A stretch of DNA of 64,000 bases, from assembly GCF_017094485.1 (NCBI RefSeq), contig NZ_CP064786.1, positions 868,001-932,000 of the forward strand. Reading direction: 5' to 3'. Each line of letters begins with the position of its first letter. Position 1 is the stretch's first letter. This document shows positions 26,808-63,229 of the stretch, piece after piece. A program made the position numbers and the translations under genes. The notes below the pieces were generated by a model. It did no database searches, was not told the DNA's origin, and was given only the letters and a program-made list of their open reading frames with translations. Source of the DNA: Natranaeroarchaeum sulfidigenes. Its GTDB lineage: Archaea; Halobacteriota; Halobacteria; Halobacteriales; Natronoarchaeaceae.

Positions 26808-27227
26808 CTATCGAACGACCGTCACTGGCACGGGCGAGCGCCGCACGACAGTTTCGGCGACGCTGCCGAGCAGGACACGCGAGACGCCCGAGCGTCCCCG
26901 GCTGCCGATCACGATCAGGTCGACATCGTGTTCCTCGGCGGCGTCGACGATTCCCGTTGCCGGTTTCCCGATAATCGTCTCAGTCGTGAGCTCGCGGTCG
27001 TGTTCTGCCGCAACCTCTTCGGCGTTGTTCAGAAGGCCCTCCGCTCGCTGTTCCTGCCCTGTTCTGATCTCCTGGTAGTCGATGTAGTGTTCGCCGTACA
27101 TCCCCGCGAGGATGTCGATGACGTGGACTGCGATCAACTCGGCCTCCGGATGCTCGACGATTGCGTGTTCGAGCGCTGCCGTGGATTGTTCGGAGCCGTC
27201 GACCGCGACGAGGACGCGTGATGCCAT
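26808..27227 (-). CDS. Universal stress protein (UspA family)
   Basis: 139 residues. Starts RVLVAVDGSEQSTAAL (strand one and the Asp of the ATP site) and ends with GSRGRSGVSRVLLGSVAETVVRRSPVPVTVV, the nucleotide-binding G-2x-G-9x-G-S/T signature (spans about residues 103-133). ATP-binding Usp type. Haloarchaea carry many paralogs and the specific role is unknown. It is the last ordinary gene before the decayed urea locus. Confidence 0.92.
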   Translation of the reverse strand: MASRVLVAVDGSEQSTAALEHAIVEHPEAELIAVHVIDILAGMYGEHYIDYQEIRTGQEQRAEGLLNNAEEVAAEHDRELTTETIIGKPATGIVDAAEEHDVDLIVIGSRGRSGVSRVLLGSVAETVVRRSPVPVTVVR

Positions 27228-27279: not shown

Positions 27280-27606
27280 TCAGACTGCGAGATGGTCCGC
27301 CAGATGCTCCCTGTCGTCGAGTTCGGACCCGTCCAGTTCGTCTACAATCTGCCCTTTGTCCATCGCGTAACACCGCTCGGCAAGATTCTGGACGACCGAG
27401 AGGATCTGTTCGACAAAGAGGATCGTCGTTCCCAGATCCTCATTGATCCGTCCGAGGTCCTCGGTGATCGACTGTACGATCGAGGGCTGGACACCCTCTG
27501 ACGGTTCGTCGACGAGCAGGAGATCGGGATCGCCGACCAGCGCGCGACCGATCGCCAGCATCTGCTGTTGGCCCCCGCTCATCGTTCCAGCGTCCTGATC
27601 GCCGCG
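27280..27606 (-). pseudogene. urtE: 3' stub of urea ABC transporter ATPase UrtE
   Basis: The last about 108 codons of a branched-chain-amino-acid/urea-type ABC ATPase: signature TMSGGQQQMLAIGRAL, Walker B LLLVDEPSEGVQPSIV, and the switch region ILFVEQ, ending in an acidic tail. 'DEP-EG-QPSI' is the UrtE form rather than LivF. Walker A and the whole N-terminal half are missing; upstream the frame reads into unrelated sequence that is really the opposite-strand ureF stub. The break is at about 27592-27606. The remnant cannot make a working ATPase. Confidence 0.8.
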
Positions 27607-27876
27607 GTCGCCCAGCACGAGGGGCTCACACACGAACAAGCGTGTCTCGTTCACGGCTACTCCTTCATCACGGATCTGCTCGGCGCTGCCCAGCGGCTCG
27701 GGCGGCTCAGCCACACCGAAATCCAGCGCGTCCTCGACGAATTACGGCCGATAATAGGTGAGGTCGTCGAGGAGTACCGGGACCAGCCGCTCGATGCCAT
27801 GTGGTCCTTTGCACCGACTACCGAGCTGATGGGGATGGGTCACGAACGCGCGGACAGACGGCTGTTCATGTCATAG
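27592..27876 (+). pseudogene. ureF: 3' stub of urease accessory protein UreF
   Basis: The last about 94 codons of UreF. Recognisable: VAQHEGLTHEQACLVHGYSF, TDLLGAAQRLGRL (the conserved helix), HTEIQRVLDELRPII, and the end HERADRRLFMS, which matches the UreF C-terminal 'RHExxxxRLFxS'. About the first 60% of the protein is absent. UreF works with UreD/UreG to load nickel into urease. No other urease gene is in the window. The stub starts exactly where the urtE stub on the other strand breaks off, indicating one deletion joint. Confidence 0.8.
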
Positions 27877-28348: not shown

Positions 28349-30550
28349 GTGCGGAACCAGACTCACGCTGACCGGCTTTCCGACCGATTCGAGCGCGGTA
28401 GCACAGCCTATCGACAGTACACAGGGCGCACCAGAGAAGCGCTCGACAACGATCCGACCGTAACCACTGCGTTCGAGATGTGGCAGTCGTTCCTCAGGGA
28501 GAGTCACGGCGACGTCTTCGGTGACCTCCCAGACGGCATCTCGGTGGAGTCGGCGTTTGCGGACGCCCTCTACTACGATTTTCTCGTCGAGCGACTACTC
28601 GCTCATGTCGAGGCGACGGTCGGCGTTACCGTGATGAACCGCGAACCAGGCTCGAATACAGGGGCGTTCGATGTCGACCTCGCCGCCGTTCACAACACGA
28701 TTGTCGGAGCCGACCTCCGACGCGTCGATGATACGATCGAATCTCTCGACATCACGGCGCTCGATGAGAGCATCCTCCATAACCTGTTCGAGTCGGTCGT
28801 CAGCCAGCAGGTCAGGCTCTCGCTCGGCGAGTACTACACGCCGCGGGGCATCGCCGATCTGGCGGTCGAAACCCTGTCTGTCGACGACTTCGCGGCGGAG
28901 ACGGTTCTGGATCCGGGCTGTGGCTCCGGCGTCTTTTGCGCGGCAGTTATCGAACACAAGCGGGCGAGCTACGCGGCGGCCGAGGACGCCCCGGCGCCCG
29001 CCCAGCAGGTCGAGGCAATCACGAACTCCGTGTTCGGTATCGACCTCAACCCGATTGCGGTCCGGAGCGCACGGCTCGCCTATCTGCTCGCGCTTTCCCC
29101 TCTACTCGACGATGCAGCGATCGATGCCGTCGAGATCCCGGTGTTCCTTACCGACGCACTCGGGCTCACGCGCTCGGACAGTCTCCAGTACGGCGGTACC
29201 AGGGTAGCATCAACCGTCGACCATCTCGTCGGCAACCCGCCGTGGCTTACCTGGAGTGCGCTCCCCGATCGGGTCAGAGCGGCATGGCGTGACGGCCCGG
29301 CGGACCGACTCGATCTCGTCACCCACCACGGTGCGGACGCAAAACTCGGCCACGCGAACGACGACATATCAGTCCCGTTCGTGCTCGCCTGTCTCGACAG
29401 GTACGCTCCAGACGACGCGGCGTTCGTGCTCAAACGCGGAATTACGAAGGGCCCAGCCGGTCGCAGACTGCGCGAACAGCGCCTGAACGACTCTCCGCTT
29501 GCCGTCGAACACGTCCACGATTTTACGGACCTGCGACCGTTCGGGGACGCGCGCGCCGGTGCGGCGATCTACTCGTTTTCCGTCGACCGGGAGCCATGTA
29601 GGCCAGTTCCGGTTACCGCCTGGTCACGGGGATCGGCGTCGCCCGCGTTCACGAGCGCCGAACGATTGACCCAGACGCTCGAACGCGAGGAGACAGGCTT
29701 CGTGCCGGTCGACGAGGAGGACCCTGCTTCCTCGTGGCTTCGACGCGACGCCGAGCGACGGGCACTCGGTGAGTGTTCCCACGAGATCCGCCACGGCGTC
29801 AAGGACGACGCCCGGGACGTCTTCGAAATCGAGCCAGAGCGCGTAACCGACCTCGAACCCGACAGGGTCTTTCCGTATCTCAAATCACGCCACGTCGTCA
29901 AGTTCGGCCTGTTCGGCCACGATTATCGGCTCGTCCCGGTCGACGTCGCAAACGAGGACAACGAGGCATGGCTTCGCGAGGCGTGTCCGCGAACCTACGC
30001 GTATCTCGACGACAACCGGGAGGCGCTTGAGGCCCGCTCGTCGTCGTGGCTCGACAACGGCACCTTCTACAACGTCTTCGGTCTCGGCGAGTACACCTGG
30101 GCCGAATACAAAGTCGTCTGGTGTCGGCTCGGCTACAAACCCCACTTCGTCGTCGTCTCGACGGTCGATGATGAGCGGCTTGGCAAGAAACCGGTCGTTC
30201 CCGGCGATCACTGCATGTTCATCGGTACGGACGACGAACGCGAGGCTCACGTTCTCTGTGCCCTGTTGAACTCCTCGATCTACCAGCGCACGCTCGATGA
30301 CGTCTCCTCGGGCGGCAAGGCGAGCCTTTCGAAATCAGTCGTCTCGCGGCTCGAACTCCCAGCGATCGAGGACGTCGACGAGGGGGTTGCCACACGACTG
30401 GCCGATCTCTCGCGGGCCGCCCACGGGATCGTGCCCGAACATACCGACGTGAGCAAGCGGGCGTACAATCGGACGACGATCGAGGAACTGGAGCCGGTCC
30501 GGGCCGAGATCGACGCGCTCGTCGAGGAGCTGCTCGCACGACGGGAGTGA
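28349..30550 (+). CDS. Solitary N6-adenine DNA methyltransferase, Eco57I-like
   Basis: 733 residues from a GTG start. Motif X/helix QVRLSLGEYYTPRGIADL (about 152-169), SAM-binding motif I LDPGCGSGVF (about 189), FGIDLNPIA (motif II) at about 230, and catalytic motif IV VGNPPW (about 294), the N6-adenine NPPW form. The C-terminal 300 residues (FPYLKSRHVVKFG, ALLNSSIYQ, LSKSVVSRLELP) resemble target-recognition domains of type IIG/BREX PglX enzymes. I see no PD-(D/E)xK nuclease motif in the 110-residue N-terminus, and no nuclease gene adjacent, so it may be an orphan methylase. Target sequence unknown. Confidence 0.85.
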   Translation: MRNQTHADRLSDRFERGSTAYRQYTGRTREALDNDPTVTTAFEMWQSFLRESHGDVFGDLPDGISVESAFADALYYDFLVERLLAHVEATVGVTVMNREPGSNTGAFDVDLAAVHNTIVGADLRRVDDTIESLDITALDESILHNLFESVVSQQVRLSLGEYYTPRGIADLAVETLSVDDFAAETVLDPGCGSGVFCAAVIEHKRASYAAAEDAPAPAQQVEAITNSVFGIDLNPIAVRSARLAYLLALSPLLDDAAIDAVEIPVFLTDALGLTRSDSLQYGGTRVASTVDHLVGNPPWLTWSALPDRVRAAWRDGPADRLDLVTHHGADAKLGHANDDISVPFVLACLDRYAPDDAAFVLKRGITKGPAGRRLREQRLNDSPLAVEHVHDFTDLRPFGDARAGAAIYSFSVDREPCRPVPVTAWSRGSASPAFTSAERLTQTLEREETGFVPVDEEDPASSWLRRDAERRALGECSHEIRHGVKDDARDVFEIEPERVTDLEPDRVFPYLKSRHVVKFGLFGHDYRLVPVDVANEDNEAWLREACPRTYAYLDDNREALEARSSSWLDNGTFYNVFGLGEYTWAEYKVVWCRLGYKPHFVVVSTVDDERLGKKPVVPGDHCMFIGTDDEREAHVLCALLNSSIYQRTLDDVSSGGKASLSKSVVSRLELPAIEDVDEGVATRLADLSRAAHGIVPEHTDVSKRAYNRTTIEELEPVRAEIDALVEELLARRE

Positions 30551-31801: not shown

Positions 31802-31885
31802 CACGCCCACCATCCACAGACACTATACCGGAAAACCGGCCGACATCGCTGGATATCATACTGTTAAGACCCCCGAGTGGTAGCC

Positions 31886-33064
31886 ATGCGTATGGAGACG
31901 GACACCGGATCACCGCCACGTGCGGTGATCGTCGGCGCGGGCATCGTCGGCTGTGCTGCCGCACGAACCCTCGCCCAGTCACACGACGTTACCGTTCTCG
32001 AAGCGGAGTCGATCGCCGGTGGCGCGACTGGCCGCGCTGCGGGACTGATCACCGTGCGCACCGCGTACGCGGACCGCCCGGCAGTCGGCCGATACGCGTT
32101 CGACGCGTTCAGCGACTACGACGGAACCCACGGCGTATCGTTCCACGACACACCGAGTTACGAGCTACGGCGCGAGTCCGGGGACGAAGGACTGGACATT
32201 GATCGGGCCGCAGCGCACTATCGCGAAGCCGGAATTCCGATCGAACGGCTGCGCCACGATGACATCCGGACGGAGCTACCCGGAATCGACGCATCCGACA
32301 TCGAACACGGACTCAGGATCGGCGAAACTGGCTGGATCGACCCGCACGCGCTCTCCATGGCATACAGGCAGGACGCCGAAGCGGCGGGCGTCGAGTTCCG
32401 GACGAACACGCCAGTCACCGACCTGCGCGTCGAACGACAGGAGGGCGAACAAAGGATTGTCGGCGTCGATACCCCCGACGACACCGTCGAGGCCGAGACG
32501 GTCGTTCTCGCAACCGGATGGAGAACGCCCGAGCTACTTCCGGCGGACGTCGATCTCCCGCTCCGTTCGTACCGCACGCAGTGCGTCGTGGTCGAGTTTC
32601 CCGACGAACGCTCGTTCCCGATGGGATGGGTCCCGTCCGCGGACAGCTATTTCCGACCCACCGAGACGCCGGGACAGCTACTCGTCGGTGGTGGCTCAGC
32701 GCACGAGGACGAGCCCGAGACGGCCAGTCGGACTGCGGACGCGTCGTTCCGTCGCACCGCTGCGGAACTCGTCGAGGACCTGTTCGTCGACGGCGGGCAA
32801 GCACGGCTGATCGATGACTGGGCTGGTGTCGACGCGACGACGCCTGATGGCTTCCCGATTATCGATACCCCCGCGGATGGCCCGGCGGGGCTCGTACTGG
32901 CGACGGGGCTTCACGGGCGCGGGATCATGACCGCACCGGTGATCGGCCCGGTGGTCGCGTCGCTGGTAACCGACGAGGACGCACCAGTGCCGACCGATCG
33001 GTTTCGACTCGACCGGTTCGACGACCCGGACGAGGAGTTCGAGTTCGTCAACGTGAGCGCCTGA
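31886..33064 (+). CDS. FAD-dependent amino-acid oxidase-like protein (DAO family)
   Basis: 392 residues from ATG MRMETDTG. Dinucleotide-binding VIVGAGIVGCAAARTL at about 15-30, then EAESIAGGATGRAAGL, and a C-terminal ATGLHGRGIMTAPVIG that closes the FAD site. This is the DAO fold shared by glycine oxidase, sarcosine oxidase and dimethylglycine dehydrogenase. No GcvT domain is fused and no hydrogen-cyanide-synthase partner is adjacent, so the substrate (a secondary or D-amino acid) is open. It ends 2 bp before the pentapeptide-repeat gene. Confidence 0.85.
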   Translation: MRMETDTGSPPRAVIVGAGIVGCAAARTLAQSHDVTVLEAESIAGGATGRAAGLITVRTAYADRPAVGRYAFDAFSDYDGTHGVSFHDTPSYELRRESGDEGLDIDRAAAHYREAGIPIERLRHDDIRTELPGIDASDIEHGLRIGETGWIDPHALSMAYRQDAEAAGVEFRTNTPVTDLRVERQEGEQRIVGVDTPDDTVEAETVVLATGWRTPELLPADVDLPLRSYRTQCVVVEFPDERSFPMGWVPSADSYFRPTETPGQLLVGGGSAHEDEPETASRTADASFRRTAAELVEDLFVDGGQARLIDDWAGVDATTPDGFPIIDTPADGPAGLVLATGLHGRGIMTAPVIGPVVASLVTDEDAPVPTDRFRLDRFDDPDEEFEFVNVSA

Positions 33065-33066
33065 TC

Positions 33067-34983
33067 ATGACCGGTGTCCATCCGACCGCGATACCGCCGG
33101 GCGACGCCGACGGATCCTGTTCGTACCGGATCGAGGCGGACGTGTGGGCCGACCAGTACGATCGGGAACCACGACACGGTGACTGGGACTGTCCCCGGGA
33201 CGCGTGCGAGGGGTTCGACCGCTGTGTGTTCCATCTCACGGCACCCGAACGCGACGAAGCGGGGGTCACAGACGATACGCTCCAGACGTCTCTCCTTGCC
33301 GCGCTCGACGAGTCAGGAGCAGCACCGAAACAACTGATCGGCGCGAACTTGCCGGAACTCGACCTCTCACACGTCCTGCTCGACGCACCCGACAACTATC
33401 CGGTCGAACTCTCTCACGCCACGATCGACGGTGAGCTCGCGATCGACGACGCCGCGATTCGCCAGCCCGTCTACTTCGATCACTGCGAGATCGGTAGTCT
33501 TCGGATCGGTGCCAGCGATCTTCGGGGCGTGCTCACCTTCGACCATAGCGAGATTGCGGGCGAGACCGTGCTACGCGACCAGTACGACCGGTCGATCTAC
33601 TTCCGTGACGTAACCTTTCACGACGAGTTCACGGTGAAACCGGTCGTCTTCCACCGCATGGCTCGGTTCTCCGACAGCGAGTTTCACGCGCGGGCCTCGT
33701 TCTACGCGGATTTCAACGACGAGCCACATTTCAACCGCTGTGAGTTTCACGACGATGTCGACTTTTTCGTCGACATCAACGCCGACTCGTACTTCGACGA
33801 CGCCACCTTCGAGGGACGGTTCGACCTGTACGCCGCGGTCAACGGTACCCTCCGAATACGGAACGCCGAGTTCTTCGGTCCTGCTACACTCTACGCCCGG
33901 TACCGGTCGGACGCCTTCTTCAACGGGTCGACCTTTCACGACCGTGTCGGGTTCGAGAAGCCGGGATCAGACGTCGGCGCGGCCCGCTTTTACGAGTACA
34001 CGGACTTCGGCGGTGTCACCGTCGAGGGACGGGCGGACTTCTCGACCGTCGAGTTCCACGGTAGCGTTGATTTTTCGGGCTGTACCTTCGACGGCCCCGT
34101 CACGTTCGACGAGTGCCGGTTCGAGAAACGCGTCGAGTTAACCGACGTCCACTGCCGGACGCCGCCGACGTTCAGAAACGCCACGTTCACCGGTTCACCC
34201 CGACTCAGTCTGGAGGCAGAACAACCGGGACTCGTCGACTGTACAGGAGCGACGATGACCGGCGGCCTTATCGAGACCGAGGCGGACGACGACCTGCGCT
34301 ATGACTTCACCGACGGATCGCTCGGCTGTGTCGACCTCGATACGGGCGACGAGCGCGACCCGCTCGACCGCTATCGGTTCTACCGAACCGACTTCGACGG
34401 CTTCGATTTCTCGGCACACAGGAGCGAACTCGACCGGAACGACTGGCACGTCCACGAGCTCGACGCCGATGGCCTCGACACGACGGCTGACCTCGACGTC
34501 GAGGGGCTCGAAGTGACGTACAACAAGGCCAGAAACGGCGCGAACGAGACCGACGAGGACGAGGCCGCCGCGGAGTTCTTCCTCAGAGAAATGAAGTACA
34601 AGAAGCGTCGCCACGCCGAGAACGCGCTCGCAGCCGATGCGGGCGTCGTCGCCAGACTCCGAGCAGCCGGACGCCTGGTCTCGAACGCGACCCTCGATCT
34701 CACCTGTGGCTACGGGGAGAAACCGTGGCGAGTGTTCGCCGCTTCGGCTGCAACCGTCCTGCTCTTTGCCCTCGTCTTCGCCGGGATCGGGGTCGACGCG
34801 ATGGACGAAGCCTCCTCGCTGGGCTATCTGACGCTGAGTCTGGAGACGTTCGTGGCGCTCGTGCTCGGGACGCCGACCATCGACGACCCGCTCGTGAACC
34901 TGCTCACGTCGGTCGAGGCGTTCCTCGGCGCGTTCTTCATCGGCCTCTTTGTCTTCACGCTGACGCGGTCGATCAGGCGGTGA
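33067..34983 (+). CDS. Pentapeptide-repeat protein with a C-terminal channel-like membrane domain
   Basis: 638 residues. An N-terminal Cys-containing segment (CSYRIEAD, CPRDACEGFDRCVFH, about 16-60) is followed by a long right-handed beta-helix of degenerate pentapeptide repeats (about 95-440), many with aromatic centres such as FRDVTF, FSDSEF, FNRCEF, FDDATF, FSGCTF. Then a charged helical linker (KARNGANETDEDEAAAEFFLREMKYKKRRHAE, about 495-525) leads to two transmembrane helices (about 557-580 and 615-635) separated by a pore-like loop. The loop reads VLGTPTIDDP where K+ channels have TVGYGD. Family role unknown; a sensor or gated pore is possible. Confidence 0.8.
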   Translation: MTGVHPTAIPPGDADGSCSYRIEADVWADQYDREPRHGDWDCPRDACEGFDRCVFHLTAPERDEAGVTDDTLQTSLLAALDESGAAPKQLIGANLPELDLSHVLLDAPDNYPVELSHATIDGELAIDDAAIRQPVYFDHCEIGSLRIGASDLRGVLTFDHSEIAGETVLRDQYDRSIYFRDVTFHDEFTVKPVVFHRMARFSDSEFHARASFYADFNDEPHFNRCEFHDDVDFFVDINADSYFDDATFEGRFDLYAAVNGTLRIRNAEFFGPATLYARYRSDAFFNGSTFHDRVGFEKPGSDVGAARFYEYTDFGGVTVEGRADFSTVEFHGSVDFSGCTFDGPVTFDECRFEKRVELTDVHCRTPPTFRNATFTGSPRLSLEAEQPGLVDCTGATMTGGLIETEADDDLRYDFTDGSLGCVDLDTGDERDPLDRYRFYRTDFDGFDFSAHRSELDRNDWHVHELDADGLDTTADLDVEGLEVTYNKARNGANETDEDEAAAEFFLREMKYKKRRHAENALAADAGVVARLRAAGRLVSNATLDLTCGYGEKPWRVFAASAATVLLFALVFAGIGVDAMDEASSLGYLTLSLETFVALVLGTPTIDDPLVNLLTSVEAFLGAFFIGLFVFTLTRSIRR

Positions 34984-35032
34984 GACCTCCTTGGGACAAC
35001 ACCCATTTACACGCACGTACTCTGTCTAATTG

Positions 35033-35233
35033 ATGGACAGTATCGTCCGCCTGCTGTGGACGGTCCTCGTGGGCTGGTGGTTCGTCGTTCTGTGGCTCGC
35101 AACAGCCGTTCTGTTAGCCTTGCTCGTGATCTGGTACCCGCTCGGGCTCTTTATGATCGCAAACGTCTGGACCGTCCTGACGCGAAAGCGGCCGATCACT
35201 GAGGTAATCGACGATATATATGTGCTCCGATAA
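35033..35233 (+). CDS. Two-helix small membrane protein
   Basis: 66 residues (MDSIVRLLWTVLVGWW). Two tightly packed hydrophobic helices, with Trp-rich GWWFVVLWL and a WYPLGLFM turn that recalls YccF-type proteins, then a basic-acidic tail (TRKRPITEVIDDIYVLR). ATG at 35033 is preferred to the preceding TTG. It is 49 bp downstream of the pentapeptide-repeat gene. Function unknown. Confidence 0.65.
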   Translation: MDSIVRLLWTVLVGWWFVVLWLATAVLLALLVIWYPLGLFMIANVWTVLTRKRPITEVIDDIYVLR

Positions 35234-56974: not shown

Positions 56975-57005
56975 AAGTTATTAATATACTCGAACATTTT
57001 ATTAA
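56975..57005 (+). promoter_or_regulatory. AT-rich promoter motif shared with the paralogous flavoprotein gene
   Basis: AAGTTATTA at 56975-56983 and TTATTAA at 56999-57005, the same two elements with the same 15-base spacing as on the minus strand upstream of the gene at 59535. TTTTATTAA is a likely TATA box; its spacing would fit a leaderless start at ATG 57027. Confidence 0.5.
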
Positions 57006-57011
57006 CAGGAG

Positions 57012-58274
57012 ATGACCGAGCGACCGATGCAAGGGAGCAATCGATCGGACGTACGGAGCAGTCCACGCGTGACGATCATCGGCGGCGGCGTCCACGGCGT
57101 CCACCTCGCGATCCGGCTGCTCGACGCGAATGTCGTCGAGCACGAGGACCTGCGAATCGTCGAACCCGACGGATTGCTCGGCGGGTTTCGTCGGAAGTGT
57201 CGGCAGTGTGGCGTCGAGACGCTCAGGTCACCCTTTGTCCACCACGTGGCTCGCGATCCGTTTTCGCTGCGTGATTTCGCACGCGGGCGGGGGCGTGACG
57301 ACGAACTGCATCCGAGCAGGGTTGGCGGTGACCGGCCGACGACCGACCTCTTTTTCGATCACGCGGCGTGGGTCGTCGACCGGTACGATCTGGATTCGTC
57401 CATCGTCGAGGGCAGGGCAACCGGGATCAGAGAGCAGCGCACGGGGGTTGCCGTGGAGACGACCACGGGGCGGATCGAATCCGACTGGTGTCTCCTGGCG
57501 ACCGGCTACGGCGGCGCGACGTCGCTCCCCGAGTGGGCTGGCACGCTTCCGGAGGACGCCCCGGTCACACACGTCTGGGATCCGTCGTTCGACCGGGAAG
57601 TGATCGGCGAGACCGAACACGTCGGCATCGTTGGCGGTGGCATCACGGCTGCACAGTTAGCAGTGACAATTGCGCGTCCGTCCAGAACCGTGACGCTGTT
57701 CGCGCGCAGTCCGTTCCGCGTCGAGTCGCTAGAGGCGGGCACCGAGTGGATGCATTTTTCCAGCGTCGTGGAGGAACTCCACGATCTGCCTCCCGCCTCG
57801 CAGGAACGCCAGCAGCGCGTCGAGCAGGCGCGAAACGACGGCGCGATCCCGCCATACGCCTTCGACCGATTGCGCGAGACATTGCAGGGGGACGGCATAT
57901 CCCTCGAACGATCGGAGATTACGGTCGCCAACGAGGCGGGCGGGACCGTCGTCGTCACCTGCGAGGACGGGACTGCGGTGTGTCTCGACCGGATGATCTG
58001 TTCAACTGGCTTTGGGAATCCCTACAGTGCCAGCCTGTTCCGCTCGTTCCGTGAGACGTCACTGGCGTCTGGTTATCGCGGCGCACCGGTTCTCGACGAC
58101 GAGACGCTGTGCTGGCGATGCGAGGACGGGAGCCCCTCGCGGGTACTCGTCTCCGGAGCCGCCACGGAGCAGGTGCTTGGCCCATTCGCTCGCAACGTGA
58201 TCGGCGCGCGACGGGCGGGTGACCTGATCGTCGACCACCTGACCGCCCAGAAGGAAGCAATGGTGCCAGCGTAG
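57012..58274 (+). CDS. FAD/NAD(P)-binding oxidoreductase, paralog A
   Basis: 420 residues from ATG 57012; ATG 57027 is an alternative that fits the TATA spacing better. First Rossmann IIGGGVHGVHLAIRLL (FAD), then a conserved block FRRKCRQCGVETLRSPFVHH, a second Rossmann GIVGGGITAAQLAVT at about 200 (NAD(P)H), and ATGYGG and STGFGN (C-terminal ATGY-type motif). This is the layout of N-hydroxylating or flavin monooxygenases of class B. About 413 residues of it align with the convergent neighbour. Substrate unknown. Confidence 0.8.
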   Translation: MTERPMQGSNRSDVRSSPRVTIIGGGVHGVHLAIRLLDANVVEHEDLRIVEPDGLLGGFRRKCRQCGVETLRSPFVHHVARDPFSLRDFARGRGRDDELHPSRVGGDRPTTDLFFDHAAWVVDRYDLDSSIVEGRATGIREQRTGVAVETTTGRIESDWCLLATGYGGATSLPEWAGTLPEDAPVTHVWDPSFDREVIGETEHVGIVGGGITAAQLAVTIARPSRTVTLFARSPFRVESLEAGTEWMHFSSVVEELHDLPPASQERQQRVEQARNDGAIPPYAFDRLRETLQGDGISLERSEITVANEAGGTVVVTCEDGTAVCLDRMICSTGFGNPYSASLFRSFRETSLASGYRGAPVLDDETLCWRCEDGSPSRVLVSGAATEQVLGPFARNVIGARRAGDLIVDHLTAQKEAMVPA

Positions 58275-58293
58275 AGTACCCTCTCCCAGACGT

Positions 58294-59535
58294 TCAGGGC
58301 CCCATCGCTGCGAGGTCAGCACGCTCTAGCTGGGTCGCTATCGACGGAACGATCCGGTCTGCCGCCCGCCGTGCGCCCGGGATGTTTGGTGCATAGGGAC
58401 CGACAGTACCGAGGGCCAGCGCGCCGGTGACGAACAGGTTCGATAGCTGCCCCTGATCGTGTCGCCACGCGAGCGTCTCGTCATCGAGGAGTGGCATTCC
58501 GTCGTATCCGCGTGCGAGCGAGCACTCCTGGGCGACCCGGTCGACGAACGGATGCTCGAACACCGGCTCGAAGCCTGTCGCGAGGACTACCCGGTCGCCG
58601 ACTAGGTCCCTGACGTGGCGGATCGACAGCGCAATCCCGTCGTCTTGACGTTCAACCGTCTCGATGTCGCCGCTCTCGATGACCAGCGCACCCTCGTCGA
58701 TCCGCTCGTCCAGTTCCGCGTACAGGTACGGCGGCATCGACGCGTCGTTGCGCGCGTCCCTCGCTACCTCCAGTCGCGCTTTCGATCCCGGCGGATGCGT
58801 GTGCAGCTCCGATTCGATTCGTGACCAGTTGATCCACGGCGGCGCGGCTTCCGAGACCTCCCAGTCGAGCGGGTGTCGGCTGACCAGCCCGACCGTTTCC
58901 GACTCGCTCAGCGTGCAGGCGAGCTGGCCGGCAGTGATCCCGCCACCGACGATCAGCGTCCGGTCGACGGTTCTCGCGGGATCAAACTCGCCCCAGACGT
59001 GGACCACGTCGTCGATTCCCTGTGCCCAGTCCGGCCGGGTGTGGCGACCTCCGTGTCCCATCGCGAGGACGCAGGTGTCGGCGATCGCGCGTCCCTCCAC
59101 CGTCTCCAGTGCGAGACGATCCCTGTCTGTCGGGCGGATCGCCTCGACGTGTGTCCGGCGATGGCAGCTATCGAGACCGCTGGTCGCGATAATCTCGTCG
59201 GCGTAGTCCAGAAACAGGGACAGCGAGGGCCGGGCCGGGTAATCGATCGTCGAGACGAGTTCGTCCCTGCGATCGTATTCGTCTGCGAACCGTTCGAGGC
59301 CGAACGCCTCCGCCCCGACGTGGTGGACGAACGTAGATCTGAGTGTCTCCATCCCGCACCGCTGGGCCTTCCGACGGAACGATTCCAGCAGTTGCTCGTG
59401 TGGGTCGAAGATGGCGATATCCGCTGGGCCAAACTGGGTGTCCTCTACTAGCCGGTTCGCGAGATACGTCCCGTGGATCCCGCCACCGATGATAGCACAC
59501 CCGAACCGCTCTGGACTGTGTGTGTCGTTGCTCAC
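58294..59535 (-). CDS. FAD/NAD(P)-binding oxidoreductase, paralog B
   Basis: 413 residues from a GTG start. Same order as paralog A: AIIGGGIHGTYLANRL, FRRKAQRCGMETLRSTFVHH, IVGGGITAGQLACTL at about 207, and ATGFEP near the C-terminus; LALGTVGPYAPNIPGARRAAD near the end also parallels A (VLGPFARNVIGARRAGD). It lies convergent with A, 19 bp between stops, as from an inverted duplication. It retains RCGMETLRS where A has QCGVETLRS. Its promoter shares A's motif and abuts that of the CobW gene. Confidence 0.8.
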   Translation of the reverse strand: MSNDTHSPERFGCAIIGGGIHGTYLANRLVEDTQFGPADIAIFDPHEQLLESFRRKAQRCGMETLRSTFVHHVGAEAFGLERFADEYDRRDELVSTIDYPARPSLSLFLDYADEIIATSGLDSCHRRTHVEAIRPTDRDRLALETVEGRAIADTCVLAMGHGGRHTRPDWAQGIDDVVHVWGEFDPARTVDRTLIVGGGITAGQLACTLSESETVGLVSRHPLDWEVSEAAPPWINWSRIESELHTHPPGSKARLEVARDARNDASMPPYLYAELDERIDEGALVIESGDIETVERQDDGIALSIRHVRDLVGDRVVLATGFEPVFEHPFVDRVAQECSLARGYDGMPLLDDETLAWRHDQGQLSNLFVTGALALGTVGPYAPNIPGARRAADRIVPSIATQLERADLAAMGP

Positions 59536-59568
59536 GAGTGATCGGTACCGAGATCGATGCCCCAGAGA

Positions 59569-59608
59569 TTAATAAGAACTGTGACTTAGATAATAACTTA
59601 TATTATGA
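59569..59608. promoter_or_regulatory. Divergent promoter: shared motif and palindrome between paralog B and the CobW gene
   Basis: Minus strand carries AAGTTATTA (59591-59599) and TTATTAA (59569-59575), as upstream of paralog A. Plus strand has ATAATA-ACTTA-TATTAT (59590-59606), an inverted repeat that overlaps a TATA-like TATATTAT centred 27 bp before the CobW ATG. A single regulator could therefore control both directions. Confidence 0.5.
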
Positions 59609-59630
59609 CCAAGCCATAGGTTGTTAATGA

Positions 59631-60911
59631 ATGAGCGAAGAGACGACTCCCGTGACGGTACTGTCCGGTATGCTAGGTGCCGGAAAGACCACCACACTCA
59701 ACCACATCCTTGCACAGAGTGGCGACCGCGAGCTAGCGGTCCTCGTCAACGACATGGGCAAGGTCAACGTCGATGCGGATCTGGTCGCTGAATCCTCGGA
59801 CATCTCCGACGAGGAGGAAGAGCTAGTCGAACTGGACGACGGCTGCATCTGCTGTGAGCTTCGCGGCGATCTGCTCGAAGCGGTCGACAGGCTCACCGAG
59901 GCGGGCGAGTTCGACGCCATAGTCGTCGAGTCGACCGGCGTCGCCGAGCCACTCCCTGTCGCACAGACGTTGACGATGGGCTTTGACCAGTCCGATCTCG
60001 ATCCGACCGAGTTCTACGAAGAAACCGGTATCGAGCCGCTGTCGGGCTGTCACCTCGATACGACGGTCACCGTCGTCGACGCCCACCAGTTCCACGAGGC
60101 GATGCAATCCGACGAGGTCCTCGACGACGACGGCACCGAGAAACATCTCGGCGATCTGCTCGTCGAACAGGTGGAGTTCTGTGACGTCCTCCTGTTGAAC
60201 AAGTGCGATCTCGTCGACGAAGCGACGCTCGAGGAGATCGAAGCGACGCTCGAAGTCCTCCAGCCCCGCGCCGAGATCCTGCGGACGACTCACGGCCGGG
60301 TCGACGTCGACGACATCGTCGAGACCGAGCGCTTCGACTTCGAGGAAGCACGCGCCTCGGCTGGCTGGATGCAGGAGCTACAACAGCCACACGAGTCCGC
60401 GGAGGAAGAACACGGCGTTACTTCCTTCGTGTTCGAGGCCGACCGACCGTTCCACCCCGAACGGTTTGCCGAGCTGCTTGACTCGTTCCCCGACGAAGTC
60501 GTCCGCTCGAAGGGTCACTTCTGGCTCGCCGGTCGGGAGGACAACGCGATCATGCTCCACGTCGCGGGCCAGTCGGTCCGGGTCGCACCGGCCGGTCGGT
60601 GGGTAGCGAGTCTCCCGGCCGAAGAACAGGAAGCGCAGTTCGAGGCCCATCCCGGCCTCGAAGACGAGTGGGATGACCAGTGGGGTGATCGTGGCACCCG
60701 TCTGGTACTGATCGGCGTCGAGATGGATCACGAGGCACTCCGGACGTATCTGGAGCACAGCCTGCTCACCGACGAGGAGATGGCGGCCGACTGGGACGCC
60801 TTCGAGGATCGCTTCCCGACGTTCGAGGCCCCCGAAACCGGGGAAGCGACCGACGCGGACGAATCGGACGAAACGACCGACGGTGGCGAAGAGATCGGTA
60901 TTGCTGATTGA
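59631..60911 (+). CDS. G3E GTPase of the COG0523/CobW family (metallochaperone)
   Basis: 426 residues. Walker A SGMLGAGKTTT at about residue 11, the CxCC metal-binding motif GCICCELRGD at about 68, DDGCI nearby, ESTGVAEPLPV (switch), NKCD near 188, and a C-terminal CobW domain (DRPFHPERF, RSKGHFWLA). Acidic tail (DADESDETTDGGEE). The family delivers zinc or cobalt to target enzymes. The CxCC motif and the shared promoter with the flavoproteins suggest metal supply to that set. Confidence 0.92.
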   Translation: MSEETTPVTVLSGMLGAGKTTTLNHILAQSGDRELAVLVNDMGKVNVDADLVAESSDISDEEEELVELDDGCICCELRGDLLEAVDRLTEAGEFDAIVVESTGVAEPLPVAQTLTMGFDQSDLDPTEFYEETGIEPLSGCHLDTTVTVVDAHQFHEAMQSDEVLDDDGTEKHLGDLLVEQVEFCDVLLLNKCDLVDEATLEEIEATLEVLQPRAEILRTTHGRVDVDDIVETERFDFEEARASAGWMQELQQPHESAEEEHGVTSFVFEADRPFHPERFAELLDSFPDEVVRSKGHFWLAGREDNAIMLHVAGQSVRVAPAGRWVASLPAEEQEAQFEAHPGLEDEWDDQWGDRGTRLVLIGVEMDHEALRTYLEHSLLTDEEMAADWDAFEDRFPTFEAPETGEATDADESDETTDGGEEIGIAD

Positions 60912-60916
60912 TACAC

Positions 60917-61174
60917 ATGTCTTCAGACTTTCAGACCGCAGTCAAACGGAACGTATCGAAGGATAGCCGACGCAAAGCGATCGACAGACTCGTCGAAAAA
61001 CGGGACGCGACGAACCTCGGCGTACTGGTCCGGACCGGCGGCCTCGTCGGCGACCTCCGTCGCCACGCTCTCGAAGGGCTTGGCCGCTGTTCGGCGACGG
61101 CCGAGCTCGAATCGATCACCGAGGATAGAACCGTAGAATCGTCGCTCCGGGATCGGGCCGCCGAACTGGCCTGA
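60917..61174 (+). CDS. HEAT-like small helical protein
   Basis: 85 residues (MSSDFQTAVKRNVSKDSRR). Helical repeats resemble HEAT/PBS-lyase units: AIDRLVEKRDATNLGVLVRTGGLVGDLRRHALEGLG. It begins 5 bp after the CobW stop, so co-transcription and a partner role are likely. No catalytic motif. HEAT proteins with CobW are often linked to protein complexes or metal transfer. Confidence 0.7.
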   Translation: MSSDFQTAVKRNVSKDSRRKAIDRLVEKRDATNLGVLVRTGGLVGDLRRHALEGLGRCSATAELESITEDRTVESSLRDRAAELA

Positions 61175-61216
61175 GGGCGGCGCTCCCGCCAGACGCCGAG
61201 ACGGGACACCGACCAA

Positions 61217-63229
61217 TTATGCCAGCCAGTCGTCGGGTTTCGTATCGTAGTCGATGTCACTGGCGGCGATATCCTCGACGTCCTCCCACGGTAGCGAGCG
61301 TTCGTCGAACGTCTCGCCGTCGTACCGGATCAGTGCTCCCTGCTCGGTGGGTTCTGGCTCCTCGTTGCGACGACGCGCCACCTCACGATCGTGATCGTCG
61401 ATCCGTTTGACGATCGTCACGAGATTGACGGGTCGACCCCACAGCTCGAAGACGCGTTCGAGCGTTCGCTTTGCCTGTTCTATGTCGAGCATGACGCCGT
61501 TGTACCGGTGGGAAAGCAGTAGCTCGTTACGGTTGTTGTAGTTGCCGTCACTGACGACGATCGTCGGCTTCCCGAAGTTCGTAAAACGGAGCAGGAGTTT
61601 CTTCTTTACGTCCGCAGCGTCCCGGCTGGCGACGCGTGGCTGCCCCGTCGCGTGGGAGTGTTCGTAGGTGAAATACTCACCCTCCTCGACGAACTCGTCG
61701 GTGAGGAACTCGTCGAGGAACGTCACGTCGTTGTGGCTCTCGCGGATCTCGCGCATCCGGTCCCAGCCGGTCGTGTAGTCGACATCCTCCAGAGCCTCCT
61801 CCACGCTGTCGTAGATCGCGTCATCGAAGAGATAGCGACCAAGCCGTTCGAGTTCGGACTGGCTCACGCTCGGCAGGAAACTACGGTTCTGTGGCTTGAT
61901 CAGTGAGAAGTGTCGACGCGCCAGCCCCTCGTAGGTGAGCACTTTCCAGGGGTAGCGATCGACGTCAATATCGCCGTCACGGGCGCGCTGGAGGTTCTCA
62001 CGATCGACATATCTGTCGGGCAGGTCGGCAACCTCGTCGAGCCGGTCGCCCGTGATCAGTTTCAGCGCCGAGGGGGGTTCGAGTGTCTCCAGTACGGCAT
62101 CGAAGTCGACGGATTCCGACAGGTTCCGCCACGAGATTCCCTCGACGCGCAGCAGTTTGTCCAGCACCTCCCGACGGTTAACCGTGTTCTCAGCGTACTG
62201 CCAGAGTTCGAGGCCGAGCTTGTAGGGATTCAGACCGGGCGAGCCGAGCACACGGGCCATGTGATCGGCGTAGGTGAGGAACTCGTCAGCCTCGGCGAAG
62301 TTCTCGCCAGCCATCATGACGGATTCCCAGTAACTTGCCCACCCTTCGTTCATTATTTTTGTCATTTTCTGCCCCGCGAAGTAGTACGACTCGGTGCGCA
62401 GCATCTCCAGGACGTCACGCTGCCAAGGCTCGTACTCGCGGGCCTTCCCGGCGTCGGCATCGAACTGCTTTCCATGCTCGCCGAGGAACGCGATGACGTC
62501 TTTCTCGGGCGTCGTGGGGTCAGTCGTGTCCTCGTCGTCGGCCTGTCCTTCGAGCCATTCCTCGGAGAACACCTCCTCGCGGACTTCGTCGCTCAGCTCC
62601 AGTTCGGCGAGCTGTTCGGCAAGGTCGGCCTCCCGCTGCTCGAGCTCGCTCTCCGGGTCGCCCGGTCGCGTCGCCGAGAAGGCCTGATGCTGGTCGATGG
62701 TGTCTTCGAGCGTCAGCACGTGGTCGATCCATCGCTCGACGTCGCCCCGGTCGATCTCGGGATCCTCCATGTACTCGCGGATCTGGCGGGCGTGGCGTTC
62801 CAGCATGGCCGCCGCCTCGACAGTATCGTTGCTCCGTCCGTCGGTGAAGAGGCCGAACCACTGGTTGTTGGCGAAGAAGTCGGCGTGGGCCTCGACGTGC
62901 GTGATCACCGCTTTCTGGTCGGCGAGTTCGTTCGACTCCTGCAGGAAGGCATGGGAAGGGTTGTCATTGTTGACGATCTCGAAGGCCTTCCCGCCCATGT
63001 ACTGGCCCTGTTTTTGCTGGCGGTCGTACTGCATGCCCCAGCGCCAGTGTGGGTAGCGTTGCTGGAACCCGCCGTACGCGATCAGCTCGTTCATCTCGTC
63101 GTAGTCGACGATCCAGTAGTTGACCGGGTAGGGTTCGAGTCCGAGGCGCTCGGCCAGTTTGCGGGCCTCCTCGACTGGTGCTTGCAGTTTCTCTGCCTCC
63201 CGCTGTGCGCTGTATCGATCGAAGTTCAT
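61217..63229 (-). CDS. SpoVR family protein
   Basis: 670 residues, somewhat longer than bacterial YcgB/SpoVR (about 510), owing to acidic insertions ([14 protein letters not shown]..., about 195-240). Family segments seen: [79 protein letters not shown], and DEFLTDEFV. Role unknown, linked to sporulation, stress and kinase-associated YeaG/YeaH. Overlaps the next gene by 4 bp. Confidence 0.92.

Follow-up and report, generated by a model that had tools for sequence, protein, structure and literature searches.

Several processes that reshape gene clusters have been described in haloarchaea. Exchange between lineages by homologous recombination is documented in Halobacteria (PMC4500145), microhomology end joining is known in Haloferax volcanii (PMC7521656), and Natrinema carries urease without the UrtABCDE urea transporter, for which a survey suggests passive urea entry (PMC12029414). 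The arrangement of the transporter (urt) and urease (ure) genes most relevant here is a divergent urtABCDE/ureBCAGDEF cluster. This layout is common in haloarchaea, because at least three urt genes were present in the examined flank at 25 of the 67 ureF loci of named genomes, nearly all divergent from ure. The locus described below retains exactly the two outer ends of such a cluster, whereas everything but these outer gene tails has been deleted.

The window analysed here is a 64,000-bp stretch (C1:868001-932000) of a haloarchaeal genome assembled as a single 3.04-Mb contig (99.3% complete). It was compared with one other species of the genus (the sister, G001), so that the sampled genus comprises two species. 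The initial annotation had described a minus-strand UrtE stub and a plus-strand UreF stub diverging from one joint with their 5' parts gone, and profile matches confirm this (Table 1). When mapped against the full genes, both stubs contain 3' parts only and meet at a single joint. The urtE stub lacks the 5' half of the gene and hence the ATP-binding P-loop. Both stubs align without gaps to the sister, urtE at 95.3% amino acid and 92.5% nucleotide identity and ureF, which is full length in the sister, at 94% and 94.9%, respectively. The ureF stub lies in a plus-strand ORF at 27568-27876. The minus-strand ORF carrying the urtE stub (27280-27714, 144 aa) is an accidental fusion, since its upstream part is antisense ureF. 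Both neighbours are conserved in the sister: the universal stress protein gene (usp) is 91% identical (amino acids) to a gene (G001:C2:463637-464053) that adjoins urtE there too, and the N6 methyltransferase-like gene is 87.6% identical to a homologue that likewise adjoins ureF. The latter gene also matches the MADS2 defence methyltransferase model, though weakly and only in part (52 bits against a cut-off of 720).

Table 1. Features at the scar (window coordinates).
Feature	Position	Strand	Remarks and evidence
Universal stress protein gene (usp)	26808..27227	-	Left neighbour; PF00582, E 8.2e-38
urtE stub, last 107 codons, urea ABC transporter ATPase	27280..27601	-	TIGR03410 positions 120-230 of 230, E 1.8e-32
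Deletion joint, 3 shared bases TCG	27599..27601	.	Aligned base by base to the sister on either side
Chance open frame upstream of urtE stub	27602..27714	-	Antisense to ureF stub; ORF list and joint position
ureF stub, last ~91 codons, urease accessory protein gene	27602..27876	+	PF01730 positions 99-150 of 151, E 8.6e-11
N6 adenine methyltransferase-like gene	28349..30550	+	Right neighbour; PF02384, E 2.6e-8

In the sister, the cluster is intact between the same neighbours. Given in window orientation, usp, urtE, D, C, B, A and nikR lie on the minus strand and are followed on the plus strand by metal ABC transporter substrate-binding and permease genes, ureBCAGDEF and the N6 methyltransferase gene. 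The sister UrtA and UrtB proteins score above curated archaeal cut-offs; UrtC, UrtD and UrtE each have the corresponding Urt model as their best match, below cut-off. There, usp and full-length ureF are ~13.5 kb apart on the same contig, and the piece absent from the window measures exactly 13,107 bp in the sister (G001:C2:450156-463262). DNA alignment shows the flanks of the scar to be collinear with the sister for tens of kb on either side, at ~89-91% identity. Thus, as the initial annotation proposed, one deletion took the whole divergent urt/ure cluster. The direction of change is a deletion in the host lineage, because truncated gene pieces remain there; these same remnants led us to reject an insertion event in the sister. 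An assembly artefact at the joint is extremely unlikely given a near-complete single contig, the absence of UrtA anywhere else in the assembly, and collinear flanks on both sides.

The joint itself is narrower than was first described. In the window-sister alignment the left part runs unbroken to 27609 at 91.0% identity and the right part begins at 27599 at 88.7%; base by base, left homology stops at 27601 and right homology starts at 27599. The homology overlap, placed by the initial annotation at about 15 bases (27592-27606), measures 3 bp. This short match is compatible with the end joining suggested there, although the long overlap offered in its support was not borne out. By chance, about 5-6% of random joints would share 3 bases or more, so microhomology end joining or slippage at the 3-bp match is no more than possible, the match being weak evidence for either. 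No long repeat flanking the joint was found within the window, and no sigma-70-type promoter or terminator pattern was seen at the scar, a result that is little informative for an archaeon.

The differences between the stubs and the sister genes fall nearly all at third codon positions (1/2/21 at positions 1/2/3 for urtE and 3/0/11 for ureF), so the deletion is recent when set against the species split. The initial annotation had also called the event recent, which the codon-position pattern bears out in this relative sense. Six first- and second-position changes were seen in the stubs, compared with ~32 expected under free drift over the whole branch. By a rough Poisson estimate, in which the two branches are taken as equal, the stubs have thus drifted freely for at most about 37% of the branch.

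Comparison with the sister also revealed features elsewhere in the window. Positions 57000-62000, which by eye contain genes for two FAD/NAD-binding proteins, a CobW-like protein and a SpoVR-like protein, match the sister at 96-100% identity, where the background is near 90%. This looks like recent exchange between the host and sister species. Ribosomal RNA was considered as a cause of the near-identical tracts, and no Rfam match to rRNA was found in the window or in loci L101 and L002. A segment of ~3.4 kb (31802-35224) has no counterpart at the same place in the sister and encodes a FAD-dependent oxidase-like protein (31877-33064) together with a protein of 638 aa (33067-34983) that has membrane segments and pentapeptide-like repeats.

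The initial annotation went on to conclude that the strain had lost urea use. This is not supported by the rest of the genome, in which we identified a second complete urease cluster (C1:563575-572074; 563.6-572.1 kb). Its genes are ordered ureF, E, D, G, A, C, B, metal transporter and nikR, with no urt beside them. The UreC protein aligns full length to solved ureases and retains the active-site residues, with roles named as in Klebsiella urease: the histidines that bind the metals, the lysine that undergoes carbamylation, the catalytic histidine, the flap cysteine and the aspartate. Thus, although the deletion took both the native cluster and the Urt transporter, loss of urease and urea use altogether is very unlikely in a genome with a complete second cluster and an intact UreC. 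The transporter, on the other hand, is missing, since no member of the UrtA family was found in the host genome with the sister UrtA protein and TIGR03669. A search for the urea channel PF03253 gave no match in the host, but control genomes also gave none, so this negative is no sign that the channel is absent. Judged from gene content, the host has kept urease genes at another locus and lost the Urt urea transporter. In the Halobacteria class sample, 30 of 116 UreF-bearing genomes lack UrtA (match at E 1e-60); at the same threshold, five genomes carry UrtA without UreF.

The second cluster has the same gene order as the deleted one, which might suggest that the native cluster moved, or was copied and moved, from the scar to 563 kb. 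The stub identity comparison contradicts such a relocation, making it vanishingly improbable: over the stub region the stub is 94.9% identical to the sister at the nucleotide level but only 75.5% identical to the host's own 563-kb ureF, the same value as between the sister and the 563-kb copy. With these identities, the 563-kb cluster is neither the moved native cluster nor a recent copy of it. In a UreF tree the stub groups with the sister and the 563-kb copy falls outside them, the three forming a fully supported clade apart from other haloarchaea; just 38% of columns are filled by the stub, and support for the inner fork is 100/67. By these sequence comparisons, the remaining cluster is non-orthologous to the deleted one. 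The donor search covered the class sample and the 67 ureF loci in named genomes, the latter from a later scan, as an initial scan with a two-sequence UreF alignment gave no matches. No close donor of the 563-kb cluster was found in this set, with UreF identity reaching at most 57% at the 67 loci and at most about 60% in any genome outside the genus, and no UreF was found in other sampled genomes of the host's family beyond the host and sister.

The surroundings of the second cluster show a mosaic pattern. To its left, much of 545.5-558.3 kb (tracts 545.5-552.2 and 555-558.3 kb) matches the sister at 95-100% identity, with a fall to 75-88% at 559.5-563.3 kb. To its right, values of 74-92% at 574-577.7 kb give way to 96-100% from 578.2 kb onwards (tract 578.2-579.9 kb). 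The steps at the edges are sharp (100 to 80% and 88 to 97%), and synonymous divergence is raised in the flank genes (a pot-like transporter and an amidohydrolase) much as it is in the cluster; a comparison labelled glutaredoxin in the same set paired mismatched coordinates and was left out of account. Because divergence is raised in both flanks as well as in the cluster, and the block edges are sharp, this region appears to be one exchanged block. We consider that the 563-kb cluster was probably imported by homologous recombination within this block (559.3-577.9 kb), which would have made the native cluster redundant. As an alternative, an ancestor may have had both clusters as old paralogues, with the host losing the urt-linked cluster and the sister losing the 563-kb one. 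The two clusters are indeed closest to each other relative to all other haloarchaea, with a split that predates the species split. However, the divergence shared by flank genes on both sides and the sharp edges of the block argue against reciprocal loss. The sister, moreover, joins the 563-kb flanks by a 216-bp spacer, and no urease remnant was seen in this spacer region. We therefore regard old paralogy as unlikely, if still of some weight. It could also be that the sister rather than the host received a foreign block; only one other species of the genus was sampled and the donor search was empty.

Where the urease-carrying insertion ends on the right lies a 50-bp sequence (L002:15727-15776) that recurs at many places in both genomes and, by eye, looks like one end of an IS200/IS605 (TnpB) element. 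It is absent from the window, and there is no sign of a role for it in the deletion.

If the block was imported into the host, the history of the locus may be reconstructed as follows. An unsampled lineage of or near the genus would have donated a divergent block with a urease cluster and no urea pump. The imported urease would have made the native pump-linked cluster redundant; we infer this order of import and deletion. The single 13.1-kb deletion, which fused urtE and ureF mid-gene across a 3-bp match, would then have followed. What is left is a pair of dead 3' stubs, with urease at another locus and the Urt transporter gone. The general explanation, namely one 13.1-kb deletion with dead stubs, a retained second urease and loss of Urt, is highly probable. 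We lean slightly towards the fuller account, a natural urease locus swap in which a pump-less import was followed by excision of the redundant native cluster, late enough for the stubs still to read as coding sequence, uncoupling urea breakdown from high-affinity uptake.

The processes involved are ordinary, and the case is unusually legible: the scar, the intact ancestral version and the non-orthologous replacement are all visible inside one genus, which makes the cluster displacement readable. It also illustrates that a local scar is no predictor of phenotype, because what lies elsewhere in the genome reverses the conclusion about urease. We predict that the strain is urease-positive, but weak at scavenging low urea. 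Haloarchaea with urease but no Urt are many, and for one of them the locus supplies part of the history.

Overall, each part of this history resembles a described system and departs from it. Like the large microhomology-joined deletions of Haloferax volcanii (PMC7521656), the scar has a single clean joint with short shared sequence, but here only 3 bases are shared, which is not clearly above chance. The final gene content is the same as that of Natrinema-type genomes with urease and without UrtABCDE (PMC12029414); in the host, however, the event that removed urt is itself visible. Finally, as in the displacement of a haloarchaeal cluster by a divergent homologue (PMC4500145), the function is supplied by a divergent cluster while the native one is gone, and identity is mosaic with sharp edges, whereas here the replacement lies at another locus, comes without the transporter, and is accompanied by a readable scar of the native cluster.
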